Assembly (NCBI GenBank): GCA_003133565.1
Contig: PKYB01000023.1
Location: 342-54,360, forward strand
DNA length: 54,019 nucleotides
Source of the DNA: Solirubrobacterales bacterium
GTDB lineage: Bacteria; Actinomycetota; Thermoleophilia; Solirubrobacterales; Solirubrobacteraceae
Direction: 5' to 3'
Shown: piece after piece, positions 1 to 54,019 of the stretch
Numbering within the stretch: position 1 is the first letter of the stretch
Layout: every line of letters begins with the position of its first letter
Made by a program: the position numbers and the translations under genes
Notes under the pieces: model-generated
Database searches by the model: none
The model's input: only the letters and a program-made list of their open reading frames with translations
What the model was told of the DNA's origin: nothing

Positions 1-599
1 TCTCGCGCCCGGCGATCTTCGCTGCCGCGGTCGCGCTGATCGACCGCGACGGGCCGAGCGCGCTGACGATGCGCGCGGTCGCCGGCGAGCTCGGCGTCGA
101 GGCGATGTCGCTCTACCGCCACGTCGACTCGAAGGAGGCCCTGCTCGACGGCGTCGCCGAGCAGCTGATGGGCGAGATCGAGCCGCGCGGCGTCTCGTCG
201 GATTGGGCGGAGGCGGTGCGGGGATTCGCCAGCAGCGTTCGCGGGCTCGCCCGTGAGCACCCGCAGGCCTTCACGCTGCTCGGGATGCGCGCACTCGCCA
301 GCGCGAGCGCGCTGCAGCCGGTCGAGGATCTCCTGGCAAGCCTGCGAGCCGGCGGCTTCACGCCGGCGCGCGCGGTCGCCGCCTACCGCGCTGTGGCGGC
401 GTTCACACGCGGCTACGCGCTCAGCGAGGTCGCGGGCTTCGCGCTCGACGAGGGCTCGCTGGGAGCGGACACGCTCGGCGACCGCTTCCCGACGATCCGG
501 GCCCTCAGCCGCCATCTCGCAAGCGAGCCGAACCAGGGCAGCTTCCGCGCCGGGATCGAGCTGATCATCAGCGGCCTGAGCGCAGAAAGGGAGCGTTGA
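1..599 (+). CDS. TetR-family transcriptional regulator (5' end outside window)
   Basis: Ligand-responsive DNA-binding repressor of the TetR type. The frame is open to the window edge, so the true start is missing. The visible N-terminus contains the second half of the helix-turn-helix: ALTMRAVAGELGVEAMSLYR followed by HVDSKEALLDGVAE, the classic TetR recognition-helix pattern. The remaining roughly 150 residues are an all-helical C-terminal ligand domain resembling the TetR_C class. Its TGA stop overlaps the ATG of the phzF-like gene by one base (TGATG), so the two are translationally coupled. It may control that gene, which is inference. The ligand is unknown. Confidence 0.9.
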   Translation, partial: SRPAIFAAAVALIDRDGPSALTMRAVAGELGVEAMSLYRHVDSKEALLDGVAEQLMGEIEPRGVSSDWAEAVRGFASSVRGLAREHPQAFTLLGMRALASASALQPVEDLLASLRAGGFTPARAVAAYRAVAAFTRGYALSEVAGFALDEGSLGADTLGDRFPTIRALSRHLASEPNQGSFRAGIELIISGLSAERER

Positions 600-1468
600 T
601 GGAGATCGAGATCGACCTCAGCGAGACCGGCGAAACCCACCCGTACTACGTTCTCGACGTCTTCACCGACACACCGCTCGCGGGCAACCAACTTGCGGTG
701 TTCAGCCAGGGCGAGCGCTTCGACGCGCCGACGATGCAGCGCATCGCGCGCGAGCTGAGCCTGTCGGAAACGGTCTTCGTGTTAGCGCCGGAGCAGGGCG
801 GCGACGCACGCGCGCGGATCTTCACGCCGACCGCCGAGCTGCCCTTCGCAGGACATCCAACGCTCGGCACGGCGATCCTGGTCGCGAGCGCGAGCGGGCG
901 CGATCACGTGCGGCTCGAGACGGCTGGCGGGACGATTCCGGTCGCGATCGAGCGCGACGCCGCGGGGGCTATGTTCGGCCGGATGGAGCAGCCGATCCCA
1001 ACCTGGCGCAGCTACGACCACGCCGACGAGCTGCTGGGCGCGCTCGGCCTCGAGCGCTCGTTGCTGCCTGTCGAGGCCTACACGAACGGACCGGTGCACG
1101 TGTTCGTCGTGCTCGAAGACGAGCAGAGGGTCGCGGCGCTGCAGCCGGACCTGGCGCGGCTGGCCGCGCTCGGGGCGTGCTTCAACTGCGTCTGCAGGCG
1201 TAGTGGCGGCTTCAAGACGCGCATGTTCGCCCCGGCCCTGGGTGTGGCAGAAGACCCGGCGACCGGCTCTGCCGCCGGTCCGCTCGCCGTTCATCTCGCG
1301 CGCCACGGGCAGATCGGCTACGGCGAGGAGATCGAGATCCACCAAGGCGCGGAGATCGGCCGCCCGTCGCTGCTCTACGCGCGTGCCACGGGCGATCGCG
1401 AGCGGATCGAGCGCGTCGAGGTCGCCGGCCACGCGGTGATCGTCGCGCGCGGCGCGTTCAGGCTGTAG
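599..1468 (+). CDS. PhzF-family isomerase/epimerase-like protein
   Basis: 289 aa, the usual PhzF length, with the diaminopimelate-epimerase-like fold of two alpha/beta barrels. The N-terminal YYVLDVFTDTPLAGNQLAVF is typical. SLSETVF carries the conserved glutamate (about residue 57) that acts as general acid/base in PhzF. The second half contains FAPALGVAEDPATGSAAGP, the second family signature. Most family members have no known substrate, and nothing here points to phenazine synthesis. The start is the ATG in the TGATG overlap with the upstream TetR gene; a TTG one codon earlier is less likely. The 3' end overlaps the convergent exoribonuclease-like gene by 11 bp. Confidence 0.9.
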   Translation: MEIEIDLSETGETHPYYVLDVFTDTPLAGNQLAVFSQGERFDAPTMQRIARELSLSETVFVLAPEQGGDARARIFTPTAELPFAGHPTLGTAILVASASGRDHVRLETAGGTIPVAIERDAAGAMFGRMEQPIPTWRSYDHADELLGALGLERSLLPVEAYTNGPVHVFVVLEDEQRVAALQPDLARLAALGACFNCVCRRSGGFKTRMFAPALGVAEDPATGSAAGPLAVHLARHGQIGYGEEIEIHQGAEIGRPSLLYARATGDRERIERVEVAGHAVIVARGAFRL

Positions 1469-2381
1469 GCGCCGCGCGGCGCGAGCCCGGGGCGAGCCCG
1501 TGCTCGAGCGCTCCCTTGACGCCGGCGTCGAGCGCGTTCAGCCGGTAGAGCGCGAGCGCCTCGACGCTCTGGAAGCGCCCGCCCGGCGCCGCATCGGGAC
1601 CGTGATGGCAGAGCACACAGTGCCCCAGCGCCAGCATCCGCTGCTCATCGAGGAGCGCGCCGCCGTGCTGCGCGAGCAGCGCGAGACCGATCTGGACGTG
1701 GCCGAGCAGACGTCCCTCGTCGCTCAGCTCGATCGACGCGCCGTAGCTGAACTCGCGCGTCTTGCCGATGTCGTGGACGATCGCCGCGCACAGCAGCAGG
1801 TCGCCGTCAAGGCGCGGATGCTGCTGGGCGAGCTCCTGCGCCAGGGTCGCGACGGCGACGGTGTGCTCGAGCAGACCGCCGAGGTAGGCGTGGTGGCTCG
1901 CGCGTGTGCATGGCGCCAGCCGCCACGCGGCGCGCAGCTCGCCGTCCGCCAGCATCAGCTCGAGCAGTCGCCGGTAGCCAGGCTCGTAAACCTCGCGCGC
2001 GAGGTGCTCGAGGAAGCCGTCGAGCTCGTCGAGGTCGCGATAAGCGACCGGCAGGAAGCGGGTCGGATCGAGACCGGCGCTGGACGTTCGCTCGACCCGT
2101 TCGAGCTCGACCTGGAGCGCATCGCGGAAGCGCCCGACGCGTCCGGAGACCGCGACCAGCTCGCCGGCGTCGAAGCGCCCACCGTGGAGATCCGCATCGC
2201 GGAAGATTCGCGCCGGCAGCGCCCCGCTGCGATCGCGCAGCTCGAGCGACAGATAGGGCGACCCGCTGCGCGTCAGCAGTCGCTCCTTGCGCGTGCAGGC
2301 GAACACCCCGTCGACGGCGTCGCCGGCACGAAGCGTCGCGAGCGGCGCGCCGCTCGCGGTAAGCAGGCTGGACGGCGTCAT
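1458..2381 (-). CDS. OB-fold/HD-domain 3'-5' exoribonuclease-like protein (YhaM type), paralog 1
   Basis: 307 aa. Residues 15-100 form an OB-fold nucleic-acid-binding domain (RSGSPYLSLELRDRSGALPA). Residues about 160-290 are an HD metal-dependent phosphohydrolase domain with HHAYLGGLLEHT and the HD pair at 203-204 (VHDIGKTREF). This order is that of YhaM/CBF1-type exoribonucleases, which trim single-stranded RNA or DNA 3'-5'. The last HD-superfamily aspartate is replaced by Asn (residue 282, in LYRLNALDAG), whereas the second copy at 29969-30949 keeps Asp. The ATG at 2381 was chosen because the OB domain follows directly. It diverges from the PAC2 gene with only 25 bp between starts. Confidence 0.85.
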   Translation of the reverse strand: MTPSSLLTASGAPLATLRAGDAVDGVFACTRKERLLTRSGSPYLSLELRDRSGALPARIFRDADLHGGRFDAGELVAVSGRVGRFRDALQVELERVERTSSAGLDPTRFLPVAYRDLDELDGFLEHLAREVYEPGYRRLLELMLADGELRAAWRLAPCTRASHHAYLGGLLEHTVAVATLAQELAQQHPRLDGDLLLCAAIVHDIGKTREFSYGASIELSDEGRLLGHVQIGLALLAQHGGALLDEQRMLALGHCVLCHHGPDAAPGGRFQSVEALALYRLNALDAGVKGALEHGLAPGSRRAAPTA

Positions 2382-2393
2382 AGCTGCATGATG

Positions 2394-2399
2394 TACGGT
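2394..2399 (+). promoter_or_regulatory. Putative -10 element (TACGGT) for leaderless PAC2 mRNA
   Basis: TACGGT lies 7 nt before the ATG at 2407. This is the same spacing seen at many other genes in this window, so transcription would begin at or next to the start codon. It argues for ATG 2407 over GTG 2398. No convincing -35 was seen. Confidence 0.45.
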
Positions 2400-2406
2400 G
2401 AAGCGG

Positions 2407-3285
2407 ATGCAGCCGCTGCTGTGGGAGCACCGTCCGGATGGCCTGCGAGCGCCGGCCCTGATCTGCGCCTTCACCGGCTGGAACGACGCTGCCGACGCCG
2501 CGTCGGCAGCACTGTCGTTCGTCGGCAGTGCGCTCGGCGCGACGCGCTTCGCGCGGATCGACCCGGAGGAGTTCTACGACTTCCAGGCCACGCGACCGAA
2601 GGTGGCGCTGGGCGCCGACGGCCAGCGCGAGATCGTCTGGCCGTCGGTCGAGGTGTTCGCCGCCCGCGTGCCGCGCGCGCCCCGCGACCTCGTGCTGCTC
2701 GGCGGTCCCGAGCCGTCGGTTCGCTGGCGCGCGTTCACGCAGCTGATCCTCGATCTCGCCGAGGCGCTCGGGGTGCAGCTGGTCGTCTCGCTCGGAGCGC
2801 TGCTGGCCGACGTTCCGCACACGCTGCCGGTCCAGGTCAGCGGCAGCGGTTCGGACGCCGAGATGATCGAACGGCTCGGCCTGCAGCCGAGCGGCTACGA
2901 AGGGCCGACCGGGATCAACGGCGTCATCGGCGCCGCCTGTGCGGAGCGCGGCCTGCCGTCGGCGAGTCTCTGGGCGAGCGTTCCCCACTACGTCGCGGCG
3001 GCGCCCAACCCGAAGGCGGCACTGGCCCTGATCCGCCGGCTCGAGGGCATCGTCGGCGTGGCAGTCGACGCGAGCGAGCTCGAGTCGGCCGCCGCCGACT
3101 ACGAGCGCCAGGTCGGGATCGCAGTCCAGAGCGACCCGGACGTCCAGGCGTTCGTCGAGCGGCTCGAGCAGCTCGCCGAGGACGAGCGCAGCAGCGAGCC
3201 GGAGGACATCCCCTCGGGCGAGCGGCTCGCGAGCGAGTTCCAGCGCTTCCTGCGCCAGCGCGGCGGCGAGGGCCGACAGGGGTAG
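2407..3285 (+). CDS. PAC2 family protein
   Basis: 292 aa, PAC2 (proteasome-assembly-chaperone 2-like) domain over residues about 5-220. Recognisable motifs are ALICAFTGWNDAADAAS at the N-terminus, VVSLGALLADVPHT, and PTGINGVIGAACAERGLPSASLWASVPHYV. The C-terminal 70 residues are acidic and helical. In actinobacteria PAC2 proteins are widespread and often studied alongside the 20S proteasome, but their role is not settled. No proteasome subunit, Pup or ARC ATPase lies in this window. A GTG nine bases upstream is the alternative start. Confidence 0.85.
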   Translation: MQPLLWEHRPDGLRAPALICAFTGWNDAADAASAALSFVGSALGATRFARIDPEEFYDFQATRPKVALGADGQREIVWPSVEVFAARVPRAPRDLVLLGGPEPSVRWRAFTQLILDLAEALGVQLVVSLGALLADVPHTLPVQVSGSGSDAEMIERLGLQPSGYEGPTGINGVIGAACAERGLPSASLWASVPHYVAAAPNPKAALALIRRLEGIVGVAVDASELESAAADYERQVGIAVQSDPDVQAFVERLEQLAEDERSSEPEDIPSGERLASEFQRFLRQRGGEGRQG

Positions 3286-3323
3286 GGGGTGTGGTTCCGG
3301 GGGGCCGCATGCGCCGAGGCCGT

Positions 3324-6300
3324 TCAGCGCTCGGCGGCGGGACAGGCGATGCGGTAGTCGCAGAGCGCGCAGACCGCGCGCGAGGGTGTCGGCTCGAAGG
3401 CCTGCGAAAGGATCCCCTCGCCGGCCTGCTTTACGGTCTCGGCGATCCAGGCGGCGCCGGCCTCCTCGGGGCCGAGGCTGACGCGTTCGTCGTCGAGCAC
3501 GTAGTAGTAGGTCCGCTCGGTCGCCTCGAGCTGCCAGGTCTCGCGCGCCGCGACCGCGTAGAGCGCGAGCTGGACGTCCTCGCGCAGCTGCTCGGCGCGC
3601 TTTGGCAGGCTCGTCTTGTAGTCGATCAACTCGTAGCCGCCACCGGGCAGCTCGTCGATCCGGTCGACGCGGCCGCGGATCAGGTGCGGCCCGAGCGGGA
3701 ACGTGAAGTTTCGCTCGAACCAGCGGGGCGTCGGGCCGTTGGGGCCGGCCTGGGCGAAGCGCTGCTCGTAGCGAAGCAGCGAGCCGCGCGCCTTCTGGCG
3801 CAGCTGGAGCTCCTCGCCCGAGTCGCCGAAGCCGGCGCGGCGCCAGGCGACGTCGAGCAGGGCGATGATGAGCTCGGCGCCGCCGGTCGCGGTGGCGCCG
3901 GTCGCGGCGCCACCGGAGTGCTCATGGAAGCGCTCGAGCACCTGGTGGACGACGATGCCGAAGCGCTGGTTGAGCGTCGGCTCGCGCGGGATCCGCAGCA
4001 CCCGGGCGAACTTGTAGCGCAGCGGGCAGGCCCGGTAGGTGTCGACGTCGCTGGCCGAGAGCACGAGGCCGTCGCCGCGGCGCGGCAGGAAGGCCGCGAG
4101 CGACGGCTCCTCGCGGGCTGCTGGCCAGGGCGCGCCGCGCCGGGCGCGCTCGTCGCCGCCGAGCAGCAGATCGTCGAGCGGTGAGCTGAGCAGGATCTCG
4201 CGCTCGAGCGGCGTTGCCGCGGCGGACAGCCTCGCGTTGACGTCGGCGAGGGCGTCCTTGACGGTCTGCTCGGCGGCGCGAGTGGGGTCGCGGCGCTCGA
4301 GCAGCGCGGCGAGCTTGATCAGCTCGAGCAGGCGCACGACGGCGTGCGTCACGTCCAGGTCGGTGTCGAAGCGCAGCTCGCCGAGGCGCGCGCCGACGCG
4401 GGCGACCGAGTCGAGCAGCTCTTCGCGGCGCTCGCCGAACAGGGCGTGGAGCGCCTCCGACGGCCCGAACAACTCCTCCTCGCGCTCCTCCCAGCTGCCG
4501 CCGAGCGCCGCGCGTACGAGTTCGACGGGAGCCGGGGCGAGGGGAGCGGCTGCGGCGGTCGGCACGTCCGCGAAGACGAGTCCAAGATGCGCGCGCGTCA
4601 TCGCGACGTAGACCGCGCGCGGGGTCATCGATTGGCCGGCGCTGAGCACGAAGACGTGGTCGAAGGCCTGCCCGCCGACGTCGCCGGCGCCGGCGACGAG
4701 GACGGCGGCGGGATCGACGCCGGCGATCATCTCCTCCTCGCCGATCCCCGACTCGGCGACGGCGGCCGCGTAGGCCGCGAACTCGCGCGGCGTCGCGCCC
4801 GGCACGGCACGCGCATGGCGCGCGGCGAGTTCGCTCAGCTGGGCGAGGTTGATGAGGCGCTCGGCGACGTCCGCGCGAGCGCTGAAGAGCTGATGGCGGC
4901 GCAGCCCGAGACGCTCGATCAGGCGGTGGACGAAGAGATCCGCTCGCTCCTCGTCGAGCGCGGCAGCCGACGCGCGCTGGATCTGGAGGAAATTCGCGAC
5001 GCGCTCACGCGCCTCGGGCGGGAGCTGCGAGGACTCCAGCGCCGCCGCCAATCCGCTGACCACGTCGAGCTTGCGCCGGCGCGCCAGCTGCACGCAGCGC
5101 GCGATGTCAACCGCGTGCAGCTCGATCGGCGGCCGCGCGAGCGCGCGCACCACCGCGGCCGCGTCGCGGGGGTCGACGAGCAGCCGCAGCCAGGCCAGTA
5201 CGTCGCGGACCTCGGTCCGCTCAAAGAATGCGCCGGGTCCGAGGATCCGATGCTCGACGCCACGCTCGTCAAGAGCCTCGATCACCGCCGTGGCGTCGGC
5301 GGCGACCGACCGCAGAAGCACCACGCAGCGCTCCGGCGCGACACCGGCGCGCAGCAGCCGCTCGAGCTCGGCTGACACGTGCTGGGCCTGCGCACGCACG
5401 CTCGCGCAGCGCCAGAAGTGGACCGGTGCCTCACCGGCCGGCGATTTGTGGAGGACCGCGTCGTCGGCGATCGCGAGTGCAGCGGTGATGACGCTCGGCG
5501 GGCAGCGCAAGCTGGTGTCGAGGCGCACGATCGCGGCGCCCGGATGCTCGGCAGCGAGGTGCTCGAGGGCGCCGTCGCCATCGCGCAGGCGCGCCTCGTG
5601 GTCGTCCCCGGCCACGGTCAGCGAGATGCCGCCTGCGGCGAGCGCCCGCACCAGCTCGCGCTCACCCGCGCCGCGCGTCTGCCAGTCGTCGACGAGCAGC
5701 TGCTCGTGGCGCCGCGCCAGCTCCTCCGACAAGGACGGCTCACGCTCGAGCATTCGCACGCAGGCGATCAGCCGGTCGCCCACGTCAAGCGAGCCGCGCT
5801 CCCCCAGCAGGCGGTCGTGGGCCAGGTAGACGACGGCGAACTCGCGGTCGCGCTCGCTGCCGTCGGCCGCCGTCGCGGCGAAGCGCTCGGCGTCGATCAG
5901 CTGCGCCTTGAGCTGGTCGATGCGTCGCACGAAGGCCGCGAACAGGCTCACCGGCCGGCCGCGGAAGTCGTGGTGGCGCAACTCGAGCTGCGCGGCGCTC
6001 TCGAGCAGCAGGGCGAGGCGCTCGCCCGCCGTGAGGACCGGCGGCGGCTCCTCGATCCCGGCCGCGGTTGCCTGCTCGGCGAGCAGGCTCGCGCAGAACC
6101 CGGCCATCGTGTGGACCGAGAGCGCTTCGTGCGGTCGATCGAGCAGCGCCTCGATGCGACGCACCGCCGCCTGCACGGCGCGCTCGTCGCGGACGATCAG
6201 CAGCGGCCGGTGCGCTTCGAGGCCGGCTTCGACGAGCCAGCAGAAGCGGGCGGCCAGGACCTCCGTCTTACCCGCACCCGGCACGCCGTCGATTAGCAGC

Positions 6301-43976: not shown

Positions 43977-44025
43977 CCGGCTTCGCGCCTCCGTGCCTCA
44001 GGGCGCGATCAGTGCGCGAAGCCGG
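43977..44025. terminator. Long hairpin between usp and gadB spanning the gadB stop
   Basis: CCGGCTTCGCGC (43977-43988) and GCGCGAAGCCGG (44014-44025), a perfect 12-bp inverted repeat with a 25-nt loop. The right arm lies in the last gadB codons. Probable bidirectional terminator or mRNA 3' stabiliser. Confidence 0.6.
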
Positions 44026-45382
44026 AGTCTTGCGCGTGTGTCGGCGGTAGCGGCGCCGACAGGTCCTGCAGCCGCTGAGTGTGCTCGCGCAGGTCGTCCA
44101 GGAACATGTCGGCCATTTCGAAATTCATGCCGAAGCGGACGACGATTCGCAGCACAGCCAGATCGTCGCGGTTCTTCGGGAAGTAGTAGGCCGGGACCTG
44201 CCAACCACGCCCCCGCAACCTCGCCGATACGTCGAACACCGTGTAGTTGACGATCTCTGGACGCAGCGTGAAAGCGAACACCGGCAGCTCGCTGCCGTCG
44301 CTGATCAGCTCGTAGGGACCGATCTTGGCGATCTCGGTGGCCAGGTACTGGGCGACCTCTGAGGAGCGTTGCTGGATCTCGCGGTAGCCCTCGTGCCCGA
44401 GACTCGTGAACATGTAGTACTGGGCGATCACCTCGCTGCCGGGGCGTGAGAAGTTGAGCGCGAACGTCGGCATGTGGCCGCCGAGGTAGTTGACGTCGAA
44501 GATCAGCTCCTTCGGCAGTGCCTCGGCATTGCGCCAGATCGCCCAGCCGACGCCGGGGTAGACGAGCCCGTACTTGTGGCCTGAGGCGTTGATCGACTGC
44601 ACGCGCGGGATGCGGAAGTCCCACTCGAGCGTCGGTTGGATGAACGGCGCGACGAACCCACCCGACGCCGCATCGACATGCAGCGGCACGTCGATTCCGC
44701 TCGAAGCCTGGAACGCGTCGAGTGCCGCGGCGATCTTCTTGACCGGCTCGTAGCTGCCGTCGAAGGTCGAACCGAGCACCGCCGCCACGCCGATCGTGTT
44801 CTCGTCGCAGTGTTTGACCGCCTCCTCGGCGTTCAGGTGGTAGCGCTTGCCCTCCATCGGCACGAGACGCGGCTCGACGTCCCAGTAGCGGCAGAACTTC
44901 TCCCAGCAGACCTGGACGTTTGCGCCGGTGACGAGGTTGGGTTTGTCGGTCGGCTTGCCGGCGGCGCGCATCCGTTCGCGCCAGCGCCACTTCAGCGCGA
45001 GCGCACCGAGCATCACGGCCTCGCTCGAACCGGTCGTGGAGCAGCCGGTCGAGCTCTCACCCTCGGGCGCGTGCCAGAGGTTGGCGATGATCTTCACGCA
45101 GCGCGCTTCGATCGCGGCCGTCTGCGGATACTCGTCCTTGTCGATCATGTTCTTGTCTGCGGTCTGCGCCATCAGCGTCGCGGCGTGGCTCGGCATCCAC
45201 GTCGTCACGAACGTCGCGAGGTTCAGGCGGGCGCTGCCGTCGAGCAGCAGCTCGTTGGAGATCGCCTCGTAGGCCAGCTCGCCGCCGAGCCCCTTCTCCT
45301 CGAGCCGGTGGGTCGGCGCGAGGTCCCGCTCGAGCGAGCGGTGGGGCGGCTTGGTGTGGGGGTCTCTGCTGGTCAGCGCCAT
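44009..45382 (-). CDS. gadB: Glutamate decarboxylase
   Basis: 457 aa PLP enzyme that converts glutamate to GABA and CO2, consuming a proton. LNLATFVTTWMPSHAATLMA, CSTTGSSEAVMLGALALKWR, PLHVDAASGGFVAPFI (PLP Asp) and INASGHKYGLVYPGVGW (Schiff-base Lys270) are diagnostic of group II Gad. The protein ends in His, as do several acid-induced Gad enzymes. AGGAGG is 8 nt before ATG 45382, favouring it over GTG 45388. No gadC antiporter is nearby, so the link to acid resistance is inference. Confidence 0.96.
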   Translation of the reverse strand: MALTSRDPHTKPPHRSLERDLAPTHRLEEKGLGGELAYEAISNELLLDGSARLNLATFVTTWMPSHAATLMAQTADKNMIDKDEYPQTAAIEARCVKIIANLWHAPEGESSTGCSTTGSSEAVMLGALALKWRWRERMRAAGKPTDKPNLVTGANVQVCWEKFCRYWDVEPRLVPMEGKRYHLNAEEAVKHCDENTIGVAAVLGSTFDGSYEPVKKIAAALDAFQASSGIDVPLHVDAASGGFVAPFIQPTLEWDFRIPRVQSINASGHKYGLVYPGVGWAIWRNAEALPKELIFDVNYLGGHMPTFALNFSRPGSEVIAQYYMFTSLGHEGYREIQQRSSEVAQYLATEIAKIGPYELISDGSELPVFAFTLRPEIVNYTVFDVSARLRGRGWQVPAYYFPKNRDDLAVLRIVVRFGMNFEMADMFLDDLREHTQRLQDLSAPLPPTHAQDSGFAH

Positions 45383-45432
45383 CTGCACACCCTCCTCGCG
45401 GTTTGCGGTCCAGGCGATGGTACGACTAGGGC

Positions 45433-45466: not shown

Positions 45467-45517
45467 GGCGGGTTGTGGTGGTCAAGCCTCGGCGGCGAGC
45501 ACTGCCGCGGGCGGCGT
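45467..45517. repeat. 51-bp direct repeat, copy 1
   Basis: Identical over 51 bp to 46563-46613. In copy 2 the same bases encode the last residues (AAVLAAEA) and stop of the MFS gene plus 15 bp after it. Here they are detached and non-coding, 12 bp beyond the end of the aldo/keto reductase gene. Confidence 0.95.
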
Positions 45518-45529
45518 CGCGGCTCGACG

Positions 45530-46525
45530 TCAGGCGGTGTCGAGGAGCCCGCCGATCTCGGCGAGCTGTTCCGGCCGCAGCGGCCCATGTTCGAGCGCGC
45601 CGACGTTCTCCTCAGCTTGGGCCACCGTCTTGAACCCGGGGATCGGGATCGTGTTCGGGCTGCGGCCCCACAACCAGGCGATCGCGCCTTGAGCTGGCGT
45701 GCGTCCATCGCTCGTCAAAATCTCGCGGATCGCGTCCAGGCGCGCGATCCATTCCGGCTCGGCCTCGCCCTCAGCGGTAAAGAACTTGCTCCAGTCGCGT
45801 TGCACTGAACGCCAATCCTCGCTTCCGACGCGGGCCTCGCCGCGGTATTTGCCGCTGAGGAAGCCGGCGGCAAGCGGGCTGCGGTTGATGCTCGCCATGC
45901 CGTAGCGCTCGCACAGCCCGACCAGCTCCGGCGCGTCCTGGAACACGTTCATCGTGTGTTGGATTGCCGAGCAGGTGCCGCGCCGCGCCCAGCGTTCGCC
46001 GCAGGCCGGATCGTCGGTGCTCCAGCCGTAGGCACGGATCAGTCCCTCGTCGACGAGCGACTCAAGCTCGGCGGCGATCGGCCCATCCACCTCGGCCCCC
46101 AGCTCGCCAATGTGTAGTTGCAGAAGATCGATCCTGTCGGTCGCGAGGCGGCGGAGCGACGCTTCACACGACCCGCGCACATGCTCGGGCGAGGTGTCCA
46201 TGCCCGTGCCGCGGCGCACGCCCTCGACAAAGGTCCAGCCAAACTTCGTTGCGATCACCACGCGATCACGGTCAGCGCCGAGCGCTTTGCCGAGCAGCGT
46301 CTCGCTATGCCCTGCCCCGTAGGAGGCGGCTGTGTCAAAGAAGGTGACACCGAGCTCGAGCCCGCGGTGAATCGCCTTGGTCGACTCCTCGTCGTCGACC
46401 GGCCCCCAGCTCGTGGCGGCGCCGTCCGCGCCCTGCATCGGTCCGCCGATCGCCCAGCAGCCAAGGCCGAGAGCACTGACCTCGATGCCGGAACGCCCCA
46501 ATGGACGCTGGTCGATCGTGGGCAC
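45530..46525 (-). CDS. Aldo/keto reductase
   Basis: 331 aa AKR with the catalytic tetrad visible: Asp in FFDTAASYGAGHSE, Tyr in the same segment, Lys in VIATKFGW and His in LLQLHIGE. LGLGCWAIGG and IPIPGFKTVAQAEENVGAL (NADPH-binding C-terminal region) are typical of the AKR12/YhdN-like group. The substrate is unknown. GTG 46525 lies 8 nt after TAGACT. The whole gene with its own promoter sits between two copies of a 51-bp repeat. Confidence 0.92.
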   Translation of the reverse strand: MPTIDQRPLGRSGIEVSALGLGCWAIGGPMQGADGAATSWGPVDDEESTKAIHRGLELGVTFFDTAASYGAGHSETLLGKALGADRDRVVIATKFGWTFVEGVRRGTGMDTSPEHVRGSCEASLRRLATDRIDLLQLHIGELGAEVDGPIAAELESLVDEGLIRAYGWSTDDPACGERWARRGTCSAIQHTMNVFQDAPELVGLCERYGMASINRSPLAAGFLSGKYRGEARVGSEDWRSVQRDWSKFFTAEGEAEPEWIARLDAIREILTSDGRTPAQGAIAWLWGRSPNTIPIPGFKTVAQAEENVGALEHGPLRPEQLAEIGGLLDTA

Positions 46526-46533
46526 GCGGGCGC

Positions 46534-46539
46534 AGTCTA
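46534..46539 (-). promoter_or_regulatory. Putative -10 (TAGACT) for the aldo/keto reductase gene
   Basis: TAGACT on the minus strand, 8 nt before GTG 46525, with a possible -35 GTGACT 16 bp further upstream. The promoter is inside the repeat-bounded unit. Confidence 0.5.
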
Positions 46540-46562
46540 ACTCGCTGCGCACTCGAGTCACG

Positions 46563-46613
46563 GGCGGGTTGTGGTGGTCAAGCCTCGGCGGCGAGCACTG
46601 CCGCGGGCGGCGT
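46563..46613. repeat. 51-bp direct repeat, copy 2 (3' end of MFS gene)
   Basis: Perfect match to 45467-45517, same orientation, 1096 bp apart. It covers the last 33 coding bases plus stop of the MFS transporter gene and the 15 bp that follow. Confidence 0.95.
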
Positions 46614-47915
46614 GGCGCCCAAAGACCGCCAGGCTATGGCGGCAGTGAGGACGAGGCCCACGCCGGCGAGGGCAAACCCGGCTTGCGGATCAATTTCCTG
46701 GGCAACGAGGCCGGCAAGGAGTCCCGTGACCGGAGCCATCCCGGGTAGGGCCATCGTCCACGCCCCCATCACTCGGCCGCGCATCTCCGGTGCGGCGAAG
46801 AGCTGGACGAAAGCGTTGGCGCGGGAGATGAACCAGATCGAGAAGAGGCCGCACAGCGCGAGGCCGACCAGCGCGATGCCCAGCACCGGCAGGGCAGCCG
46901 TAATCAAGACGGCGATGCCGCTACACAGCGCGAGCAAGCGGACGGTTCGTCCCGCAGGAAAGGCGCTGCCGGAAGCGGAGAGAACCGCCCCGCCGATGGC
47001 ACCAACACCGAAGGCAGCCATCATCGCCGCGTAGCCGCTTGCGCCGGCGTGAAACACGTGCGTAGCGAGCAGTGGCAGGGCTACGCCAGTGTTGAACAAC
47101 ATGCCGGAGGCTGCAGCCATGAGCAGGCAGTAGCGGATTTCCGGATGACTCCAGGCGTAGCGCAATCCGACGCGCGCGGCACCGCGCTCACGCGGTCGGG
47201 CGGCGACGCGATGGGTCGGAGGGAAGATCAACAGCACGAGCAGCGGCAGCACAAAAGTGCCGGCGTTGAAGAAGAAACAGCCGGCGATGCCGGTCGTGGC
47301 GATGAGAATGCCACCACTCGCCGGGCCGAGCACCCGTGAGGCGTTGATCACCACCTCGTTGAGGCTGATCGCGTTCGCCGTCCGCTCACGGCCGACGAGG
47401 TCGATGACGTAGACCTGCCGGGCTGGCTGGTCGAGTGCACTCACGCAGCCCGCGGCGAGGGCGCAGAGGTAGACCATCCAGAGCCGGATCGAACCAGTAA
47501 TGGTCAGCACGCCAAGCGCCGTCGAAACGAAAATGAAACCCGTCTGCGTGCCGAGCAACAACCGCTGCCGGTCGAGCCGGTCGACGAGCGCACCGGCCCA
47601 CGGCCCGCCGATCAGCAGTGGTCCCCACGTGCACGCACTCACCACGCCGAGGGCCAAGCCGCCACCGCCGAGTCGAAGGACGAGCCAAGCCTGTCCGACC
47701 GCCTGGGTCAGGTTGCCCGACCCGGAGAGCGTCTGGCTGATGAACCACCAGCGGAAAACCGGAACCTGGAGCGAGCCAAACGCCGCCCGGAAGCCCTGCC
47801 TGGCGTGGTCGTTGTTTTCAACTCCGGGCGCGGGGGGAACCGTGTGTGCGCTCGTTGCGACTGCAGGGGTGACTGCTGGAGGGTCGACCCGCGCGCCGCG
47901 GTCAGGTGCCGTCAC
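46578..47915 (-). CDS. MFS exporter, EntS/MFS_3-like
   Basis: 445 aa, about 12 membrane segments after a 45-residue polar N-terminus. FRWWFISQTLSGSGNLTQAV, GGPWAGALVDRLDRQRLLLG (motif A-like loop), ALDQPARQVYVIDLVGRERT and NAISLNEVVINASRVLGPA are characteristic of the enterobactin-exporter-like (MFS_3) group. Likely exports a siderophore, drug or lipophilic metabolite, but no biosynthetic partner is adjacent. It starts at GTG 47915; no Shine-Dalgarno or leaderless -10 is evident. Its 3' end is duplicated as a 51-bp repeat. Confidence 0.9.
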   Translation of the reverse strand: MTAPDRGARVDPPAVTPAVATSAHTVPPAPGVENNDHARQGFRAAFGSLQVPVFRWWFISQTLSGSGNLTQAVGQAWLVLRLGGGGLALGVVSACTWGPLLIGGPWAGALVDRLDRQRLLLGTQTGFIFVSTALGVLTITGSIRLWMVYLCALAAGCVSALDQPARQVYVIDLVGRERTANAISLNEVVINASRVLGPASGGILIATTGIAGCFFFNAGTFVLPLLVLLIFPPTHRVAARPRERGAARVGLRYAWSHPEIRYCLLMAAASGMLFNTGVALPLLATHVFHAGASGYAAMMAAFGVGAIGGAVLSASGSAFPAGRTVRLLALCSGIAVLITAALPVLGIALVGLALCGLFSIWFISRANAFVQLFAAPEMRGRVMGAWTMALPGMAPVTGLLAGLVAQEIDPQAGFALAGVGLVLTAAIAWRSLGATPPAAVLAAEA

Positions 47916-48489: not shown

Positions 48490-49995
48490 ATGACCGCGGT
48501 CAGCTCGACGACGCCCCGGATGCTCGGCAACTACGTCGGCGGGCGGTGGACGGCCGTCGCCGCAGGCGACGTTCTCGACGTCAACAATCCGGCAACCGGC
48601 GAGCTGCTCGCCCGCGTACCGTTATCGGGCCGCAATGAGCTCGACGAAGCTGTGCGGGCCGCGCGCGCGGCGCTGCCGGCGTGGCGCGCGGTGAGCGTGA
48701 TCGAGCGAGCACGGCGCCTCTTTGGACTACGCGAAGAGCTCTGGCAGCGCCGCGAGGAGCTCGCAAGGTCGGTGACGGCGGAGATGGGCAAGACGCTTGG
48801 CGACGCCCGGGCCGAGGTCGGCCGGGCGATCGAGATGGTCGAGTGCGCGTGCGCCGTGCCGACGACGATGCAGGGACGGATCCTCGAGGACGTCGCGCAA
48901 AACGTCGACTGCGAGACGGTGCGCCAGCCGGTCGGCGTCTGCGCGGCGATCGTGCCGTTCAACTTCCCGGCGATGGTTCCGATGTGGTTCCTGCCGTTTG
49001 CGATCGCCTGCGGCAACACGTTCGTGCTGAAGCCTTCGGAGCAGGTTCCGATGACGGCGCAGATCATCTTCGAGGTGCTCGACGAGCTCGACCTTCCGCC
49101 AGGTGTCGTGAACCTCGTGAACGGCGGCCGGCCGCTGGTTGAGGCGATGCTCGACCACCCCGGTATCGACGCGATCTCCTTCGTCGGCTCGGCGGGGGTG
49201 GCGCGCCTGGTTTACGAGCGCGCAGCGCGCGCGGGCAAACGGGTGCAGGCGCTCGGCGGCGCCAAAAACCACATGGTCGTGATGCCGGATGCCGTGATCG
49301 AAAGGACGGTCGAGGCGATCATTGGATCGGCGTTTGGCGCGGCCGGGCAGCGCTGTATGGCGGGCTCGGTCGTCGTCACGGTCGGCGCGGCGCACGAGCG
49401 TCTGATGGAGGAGCTGGCGGCCGCCACGCGGCGCCTGCGGGTCGGCGACGGCATGGACACGTCGACCGACGTTGGTCCGGTCATCTCGACGGCCGCGCGC
49501 GAGCGCATCGGGGCCGCCATCGATGTTGCGATCGCCGCTGGCGCGCGCGCGGCCGTCGACGGGCGGGGCGCGGCTGCCGACTCGGGTCCCGGGAACTTTG
49601 TCGGCCCGACGATCCTCGACGGCGTCACTCCCGACATGGCGATCGCGCAGGAGGAGGTCTTCGGCCCCGTCCTCGCCGTCGTCGCGGTTGCGAGCCTCGA
49701 TGAGGCGATCGCTGTCGTCAACGCGAGTCGTTTCGGCAACGGTACGTCGATCTTCACCGAGTCGGGGGCAGCCGTGCGCCGCTACCGCCACGACGTGCAG
49801 GCCGGGATGATCGGCGTGAACATCGGCGTCGCAGCGCCCGTCGCGTTCTTCCCCTTCTCCGGCTGGAAGGACTCGTTTCTCGGCGACCTTCACGCGCACG
49901 GCGGCGATGCGGTCGAGTTCTTCACGCGCAAGAAGACCGTCACCAGCCGTTACTTCTCCGCCGGCGACGGCTCGGGCCCCTACTTCGTCGAGTAG
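48490..49995 (+). CDS. mmsA: CoA-acylating methylmalonate-semialdehyde dehydrogenase
   Basis: 501 aa aldehyde dehydrogenase. PFNFPAMVPMWFLPFAIACG (Asn158) and FGAAGQRCMAGSVVV (nucleophile Cys289) are the active site. The substrate-specific GGAKNHMVVMPDA is diagnostic of MMSDH, which uses CoA and lacks the general-base Glu of ordinary ALDHs (here GGAKN instead of LGGK/E). It acts in valine, inositol or beta-alanine catabolism, giving propionyl-CoA or acetyl-CoA. No partner genes such as mmsB or iol are adjacent. Confidence 0.93.
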   Translation: MTAVSSTTPRMLGNYVGGRWTAVAAGDVLDVNNPATGELLARVPLSGRNELDEAVRAARAALPAWRAVSVIERARRLFGLREELWQRREELARSVTAEMGKTLGDARAEVGRAIEMVECACAVPTTMQGRILEDVAQNVDCETVRQPVGVCAAIVPFNFPAMVPMWFLPFAIACGNTFVLKPSEQVPMTAQIIFEVLDELDLPPGVVNLVNGGRPLVEAMLDHPGIDAISFVGSAGVARLVYERAARAGKRVQALGGAKNHMVVMPDAVIERTVEAIIGSAFGAAGQRCMAGSVVVTVGAAHERLMEELAAATRRLRVGDGMDTSTDVGPVISTAARERIGAAIDVAIAAGARAAVDGRGAAADSGPGNFVGPTILDGVTPDMAIAQEEVFGPVLAVVAVASLDEAIAVVNASRFGNGTSIFTESGAAVRRYRHDVQAGMIGVNIGVAAPVAFFPFSGWKDSFLGDLHAHGGDAVEFFTRKKTVTSRYFSAGDGSGPYFVE

Positions 49996-52394: not shown

Positions 52395-53528
52395 CTAACC
52401 GAGCACGACGGGGGTGTCGGTGCCGGAGCTGATTGGACTGGAGTCAGAGCGTACGGCGGCCGCGATCTCCTCGGCGGTGACGTTCTGCGGGTGGTGGCAG
52501 GCCGCCAGATGGCCGCCCGCGTATTCCGTCAGCTGCGGCTCGACCTGGGCGCAGACGTCGGTCGCCCGCGGGCAGCGGGTGTGGAAGCGGCAGCCGAGCG
52601 GCGGGTTGATCGGGTTCGGCGGCTCGCCGGTGACAAGCGGCCGTTCCCGTGCGCGGTTTTCGGCGGGGTCGGGAATCGGGATCGCTCCGAGCAGCGCCGA
52701 GGTATATGGATGTATCGGCTTGTCGTACAGCTCGCCGGCAGGCGATACCTCCATCAGCTTGCCTAGGTACATGACGATGATGCGGTCGGAGACGTGGCGT
52801 ACGACGCTGAGGTCGTGAGCGACGAAGATGTAGCTCAGCCGGAACTCGTCCTGAAGCTCCTCGAGCAGATTGATGACCTGCGCTTGGATCGACACGTCGA
52901 GCGCCGACACCGGCTCGTCGAGGAGGATCAGCTTCGGGTCGACAGCCAGCGCGCGTGCGATCCCGATCCGCTGGCGTTGCCCGCCAGAGAATTCGTGCGG
53001 GTAGCGATTGAGATGCTCGGCTTGGAGTCCGACCCGGCTCAGCAGCTCCTGCGTTTCGGCTTCGGTCCGGTCCTTGGCAACCCCGCGCAGTCGCAGCGGC
53101 GTGCTGAGTATCTGATTGACGCGCTTGCGCGGGTTGAGTGAGGCCTGCGGATCCTGGAAGACCATCTGCATCTGGCGGCGGATCGGTTCGAGCTCGCGGC
53201 GCGACGCGGACGTGATGTCCCGGCCGCGAAAGCGGATCACGCCGCCGGTGGGGGTCGTCAGGCGAACCAGCGTCCTGATCAGCGTCGTCTTGCCGCAGCC
53301 CGACTCGCCGACGACCCCGAGCGTCTCGCCTTCGCGGAGGGTGAAAGAGACGTCGTCCACAGCATGTACGTGCCCGATCGTGCGGTCGACGATGATGCCG
53401 CGTTTCAGCGCGAACAGCACACGGAGGTGCTCCACCTCCATCAGCGCCGAGCCGCCGTTGCCGGGCGCGTTTGCGCTCGCGGCCCGGACCGTTTGCGGCC
53501 CCTCCGGCCGGTCGACGTCGTCGCTCAC
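52395..53528 (-). CDS. Dipeptide/oligopeptide ABC transporter ATP-binding protein (OppF/DppF type)
   Basis: 377 aa. Walker A GESGCGKTTLIRTL, Q-loop VFQDPQASLNPR, signature FSGGQRQRIGIARALA, Walker B LILLDEPVSALDVSIQAQVI and switch His (FVAHDLSVVRHVSD). The C-terminal oligopeptide-transporter extension includes GCRFHTRCPRATDVC and a later ACHHP, four cysteines placed like the Fe-S site reported in some DppD-type ATPases. GTG 53528 overlaps the stop of the upstream ATPase gene. Permeases and the binding protein lie outside the window, so peptide versus nickel specificity is open. Confidence 0.93.
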   Translation of the reverse strand: MSDDVDRPEGPQTVRAASANAPGNGGSALMEVEHLRVLFALKRGIIVDRTIGHVHAVDDVSFTLREGETLGVVGESGCGKTTLIRTLVRLTTPTGGVIRFRGRDITSASRRELEPIRRQMQMVFQDPQASLNPRKRVNQILSTPLRLRGVAKDRTEAETQELLSRVGLQAEHLNRYPHEFSGGQRQRIGIARALAVDPKLILLDEPVSALDVSIQAQVINLLEELQDEFRLSYIFVAHDLSVVRHVSDRIIVMYLGKLMEVSPAGELYDKPIHPYTSALLGAIPIPDPAENRARERPLVTGEPPNPINPPLGCRFHTRCPRATDVCAQVEPQLTEYAGGHLAACHHPQNVTAEEIAAAVRSDSSPISSGTDTPVVLG

Positions 53529-54019
53529 GCGATCACCGGCTCGGGGCTGGCGAGGCCGATCTGGTCACCGACGACGCGCAGCTTGCGCTTCTGCTCGAGC
53601 TCCAACCAGCAGCGATCGACGTGCTCGGCGTTGCCCGGGATCCGTGCGAGGAGCGCAGGATCCTCTGTGCACTGTGCGAATGCGTGCGGGCAGCGCGGCC
53701 TGAAGTGGCAGCCCTGGGGGGTGTGGAGCAGCGATGGTGGGAGCCCCGCGATCGCCGGCAGACGCTGCGAGCTGTCGCGATCGATCCGCGTGATCGACCC
53801 CAGCAAGCCCCAGGTGTAGGGGTGCTGCGGGTCATAGAACAGCTCGTCGAGCGTGCCCTGCTCGACCACGCGACCGGAGTACATGACGACGACGCGATCG
53901 GCGATGTCGGCGACCACGGCGAGATCGTGCGTAACGAGGATGATTCCGGCCCTGGTCTCTTCGCGCAGCGTGCGCAGCTCGTCCAGGATCTGGGCCTGGA
54001 TCGTCACGTCGAGCGCGGT
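53525..54019 (-). CDS. Dipeptide/oligopeptide ABC transporter ATP-binding protein (OppD/DppD type), 5' end outside window
   Basis: Only the last 164 residues are present. They begin in the D-loop (ALDVTIQAQILDEL, after Walker B) and include the switch His ILVTHDLAVVADIADRVVVM. The OppD-type C-terminal extension GCHFRPRCPHAFAQC with a further Cys in VDRCWLELE again gives four cysteines. It is the upstream partner of the OppF-like gene and overlaps it by 4 bp (GTGA). Confidence 0.92.
   Translation of the reverse strand, partial: TALDVTIQAQILDELRTLREETRAGIILVTHDLAVVADIADRVVVMYSGRVVEQGTLDELFYDPQHPYTWGLLGSITRIDRDSSQRLPAIAGLPPSLLHTPQGCHFRPRCPHAFAQCTEDPALLARIPGNAEHVDRCWLELEQKRKLRVVGDQIGLASPEPVIA

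Follow-up and report, generated by a model that had tools for sequence, protein, structure and literature searches.

A 51-bp direct repeat around an aldo/keto reductase gene in a Solirubrobacterales genome, a probable scar of illegitimate recombination

Small variable segments of bacterial chromosomes are often bounded by short direct repeats. In Escherichia coli, Staphylococcus aureus, and Streptococcus pyogenes, 10-18% of such segments are repeat-flanked, and illegitimate recombination has been proposed for much of the small-segment diversity (PMC2884548). Most of the repeats are short, with 66-94% of them measuring less than 30 bp (PMC2884548). Direct repeats also promote the loss of what lies between them. 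In Mycobacterium smegmatis, a resistance gene placed between 38-bp direct repeats undergoes precise deletions at ~6e-6, independently of both homologous recombination (HR) and non-homologous end joining (NHEJ) (PMC3519483), and deletions between repeats shorter than 200 bp are reportedly recA-independent in E. coli (PMC2991278).

A locus of similar architecture is found in the draft, metagenome-assembled genome of a Solirubrobacterales bacterium (GCA_003133565.1, contig PKYB01000023.1). The window, that is, the whole stretch of 54,019 nucleotides that was analyzed, carries on its minus strand, in this order, the genes for a major facilitator transporter (MFS), an aldo/keto reductase (AKR), and a glutamate decarboxylase (GAD) (Table 1). 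Two copies of a 51-bp sequence, R2 and R1, flank the AKR gene in the same orientation, with a start-to-start spacing of 1096 bp. The initial annotation had described a perfect repeat that takes in the end of MFS. The copies indeed match letter for letter (51/51 bp), R2 covering that end together with 15 bp beyond it. The same annotation described the unit between the copies as holding AKR alone, and one complete AKR reading frame is what the segment contains.

Table 1. Features of the repeat-flanked locus (positions in the window)
Feature	Positions	Strand	Description
MFS transporter gene (MFS_3 family), 3′ end repeated	46578..47915	-	PF05977, E 1e-44
Repeat copy R2	46563..46613	-	MFS last 33 bp, stop codon, and 15 bp downstream; 51/51 vs R1
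Segment between repeats	45518..46562	-	1045 bp; AKR and little else
AKR gene, intact	45530..46561	-	Pfam PF00248, E 1.2e-58; GTG at 46525 more likely start
Repeat copy R1	45467..45517	-	Non-coding; 12 bp after AKR stop, 78 bp upstream of annotated GAD start
Glutamate decarboxylase gene GAD	44009..45388	-	TIGR01788, 645.7 bits vs cut-off 380.4; edge of block conserved among congeners

The repeat is not a product of chance, since it is the longest direct repeat of the window, and the runner-up there, at 17 bp, is within the maxima of 17-24 bp reached in ten third-order Markov simulations. Its edges are sharp. On the right side the first base is mismatched and the GCG match after it is fortuitous; on the left side there is no similarity. 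In the 2.68-Mb assembly, the 51-bp sequence is present in 2 copies in total, even when up to 3 mismatches among the first 22 bases are tolerated. The complete stretch from R1 to R2, 1147 bp, occurs a single time. This stretch contains no Ns and is therefore not a scaffold gap.

The locus shares several traits with the repeat-flanked segments that make up microdiversity loci (PMC2884548). The segment is short, has direct repeats at both of its ends, and lacks a transposase, and the repeat is neither a known mobile nor a dispersed element. It differs from most of them in the length of the repeat, which here includes the 3′ end of a gene, and in that no empty allele was found. A dispersed repeat was rejected on the basis of the two genome copies and the lack of any recognizable copy in relatives. 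Transposon insertion with target duplication was rejected as well, because the segment consists of AKR only, with neither a transposase nor terminal inverted repeats at its ends; the earlier view that no transposase was involved thus holds. The repeat has no exact match in viral contigs and no match in phages, and a phage origin was discarded for that reason. A role as a terminator or structured RNA was likewise rejected, as a scan found no terminator in the repeat and its fold is no better than that of shuffled sequence (z 0.14 and -0.54).

Two further systems invite comparison. Integron gene cassettes likewise pair a single gene with an element that recurs at the 3′ ends of consecutive genes, but the present locus has no array, no attC-like hairpin fold, and, by inspection, no attC-type R″/R′ core motifs (RYYYAAC/GTTRRRY), so an integron attC was rejected. 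Homology-facilitated illegitimate recombination in naturally transformable bacteria resembles the case in that foreign DNA is joined with one non-homologous end, yet by itself it predicts no perfect 51-bp repeat on both sides (PMC2884548).

The AKR gene encodes a full Aldo_ket_red domain, with the catalytic tetrad D, Y, K, and H visible in the translation. Its best-scoring relatives in the PDB are perakine reductases (E 2e-34). Curated NCBI subfamily models all match below their cut-offs, and no substrate can be named as a result. The GC content of the gene, 68%, is that of its neighbours. The initial annotation credited AKR with its own TAGACT promoter, a claim that weakens on inspection. A TAGACT hexamer does occur nine bases ahead of the probable GTG start, with a 4/6 partner, GTGACT, 16 bp upstream, but a stricter consensus scan found no promoter, and the score of the best match (GTGACT-16-TAGACT, 8/12) is reached in ~2% of random 88-bp windows.

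AKR is a patchy accessory gene, judging by where its homologues lie. The best one in the order (232 genomes) is 49% identical, and the best in a wider collection, at 62%, comes from a fen Actinomycetota metagenome-assembled genome with no MFS or GAD nearby. Other relatives are scattered across many phyla, and AKR-related DNA is found on actinobacterial and rhizobial plasmids. A conserved MFS-AKR module was rejected, as an MFS gene stands beside AKR homologues in 0 of 28 loci.

Comparison with three congeners places R1 at a break in synteny. Two of them, G001 and G003, share the collinear block GST-LysR-USP-GAD, with protein identities of 68-89%. The gene after GAD is nitroreductase-like in G001, and in G003 GAD is followed by an oligopeptide (peptide) ABC operon. 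The window genome carries the same operon in the opposite orientation ~7 kb away, beyond AKR-MFS-GFA-ALDH-DedA-MFS2, and its two ATPase genes are 75-85% identical to those of G003. Inverted and six genes away, the operon marks a local inversion or insertion. Since gene order past GAD varies between congeners, R1 directly borders a rearranged region. An MFS orthologue occurs among the congeners in G001 only (77% identity), on an unlinked contig and with no AKR beside it. In the congeners AKR is absent both beside GAD and beside MFS, and both loci are rearranged, so that neither offers a clean empty site; a search of the congeners, the family, and the order for an AKR-less allele found none. The form with one repeat and no reductase that the initial annotation had proposed to look for did not appear. 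A shared arrangement in relatives or a dispersed repeat, which it had named as counting against its reading, was not found either.

Other features of this contig deserve mention. The aldehyde dehydrogenase at 48490-49995 belongs to the methylmalonate-semialdehyde dehydrogenase subfamily and is 81% identical in G001, where it shares a contig with the MFS orthologue at a distance of 57 kb. The oligopeptide ABC transporter operon spans 52395-54019 and continues into positions 1-4572 of the stretch past the window (L117). There it contains two-base N gaps (L117 362-363, 2494-2495, and 2857-2858), at least one of which breaks a reading frame; gaps of that kind are typical of a scaffolded draft assembly. 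At L117 11130-11990, ~20 kb from GAD, an open reading frame resembles a PLP-dependent decarboxylase by its motif, as judged by eye.

The repeat is best explained, with a probability of roughly 0.6, as a scar left where non-homologous (illegitimate) recombination acted on a variable part of the chromosome, without a dedicated mobile element. R2 would be where the MFS gene ends natively, and R1 would have arisen as its duplicate during the joining of AKR-bearing DNA, either foreign or rearranged, into the space between MFS and GAD. Two routes are conceivable. Fill-in of a long staggered break, located at the 3′ end of MFS, may have left a copy on either side of the AKR fragment that was captured, or a template switch may have copied 51 nt from the MFS tail into a repair junction. 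Either route would leave a perfect short direct repeat. In favour of such a scar are the perfect and unique repeat, the coding nature of R2 against the non-coding R1, the synteny break at GAD, the patchy AKR, and a Ku homologue in the genome (E 8.7e-53). Against it count the size of the repeat, longer than most of its class, and the nearly exact fit of the captured segment to one gene, a coincidence under random capture unless selection retained the gene.

A scar of this kind would predispose the AKR segment to precise, RecA-independent deletion, restoring MFS-R-GAD. Loss of AKR by slippage would be expected from the repeat-mediated deletions in M. smegmatis and E. coli, and present-day excision, already raised in the initial annotation, is plausible by this analogy. 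The M. smegmatis constructs come close in repeat length, around aacC1, and in their host, an actinobacterium with Ku, but they were engineered and their deletion was measured, whereas here deletion is predicted (PMC3519483). As no AKR-less allele was found, the direction of the event is an inference, and the same holds for AKR as the newcomer, for which copy is older, for the repair pathway, and for the proneness to deletion.

The initial annotation had considered homologous tandem duplication with loss. R1 would then be what remains of an additional MFS copy: homologous recombination would have duplicated either MFS-AKR or MFS by itself, and a later deletion would have spared the final 51 bp. 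R1 does lie downstream of AKR on the same strand, in the orientation and register of the MFS 3′ end. However, there is no other MFS-derived sequence around R1, and the deletion would need a sharp end 33 bp before the stop codon, which leaves this history unlikely.

R2 is probably the native copy and R1 the derived copy at the synteny break. DNA similarity between the MFS genes of the window genome and G001 crosses the repeat boundary and extends ~15 bp into R2 (to 46599), the Thr-Pro codons at this boundary are common to both genes, and R2 is coding while R1 is not. The support is modest because C-termini in the MFS transporter family vary freely; after a few codons, the MFS tail loses its alignment to the G001 orthologue. 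This variability would also suit the reverse direction, in which R1 is original and a template switch or conversion passed its sequence on to the MFS gene, as the last 11 codons, the stop codon, and the 15 bp downstream. Such a transfer is doubtful, given the similarity that reaches into R2 and the lack of any coding role for R1 itself.

Whichever way the copy was made, the event took place after the lineage had separated from its nearest congener, G001. Identity at 51/51 positions allows a divergence of up to 5.7% (95% bound, own calculation), and the MFS DNA of the two genomes is about 23-25% different. The initial annotation took perfect identity to imply a recent event, which holds with respect to this split; with 5.7% allowed, "recent" is loosely constrained and "very recent" would be too strong.

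An artefact of metagenome assembly is very improbable. The draft consists of 103 contigs and has two-base N gaps elsewhere on the contig, but the window is free of Ns, and none of the three N gaps that occur over the following 12 kb of contig is flanked by repeats. The repeat is also shorter than ordinary short reads, which exceed 51 bp. Least credible of all is an active cassette, in which a site-specific recombinase acting on the repeat excises and reinserts AKR in the manner of an integron or small integrative element; a unit of one gene plus one repeat, with equally oriented repeats at the 3′ ends of genes, would suit it, but the missing core sites, the unremarkable fold, the two genome copies, the lack of viral-contig or phage matches, and the absence of an integrase gene from the segment weigh heavily against it, and a minimal single-gene cassette of AKR and one repeat, which leaves and re-enters at the 3′ end of MFS through homologous or site-specific recombination with no linked recombinase, is equally far-fetched.

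Repeat-flanked variable segments are a known and common class, about which the locus says nothing new. The finding is real but ordinary. The evidence bears out the initial interpretation in part, favouring accidental recombination over a mobile cassette. The locus may be counted as one more example of how a single accessory gene enters or leaves a chromosome without a transposase, with a short direct repeat left behind. If the segment is still being deleted, it would constitute a simple natural presence/absence polymorphism.
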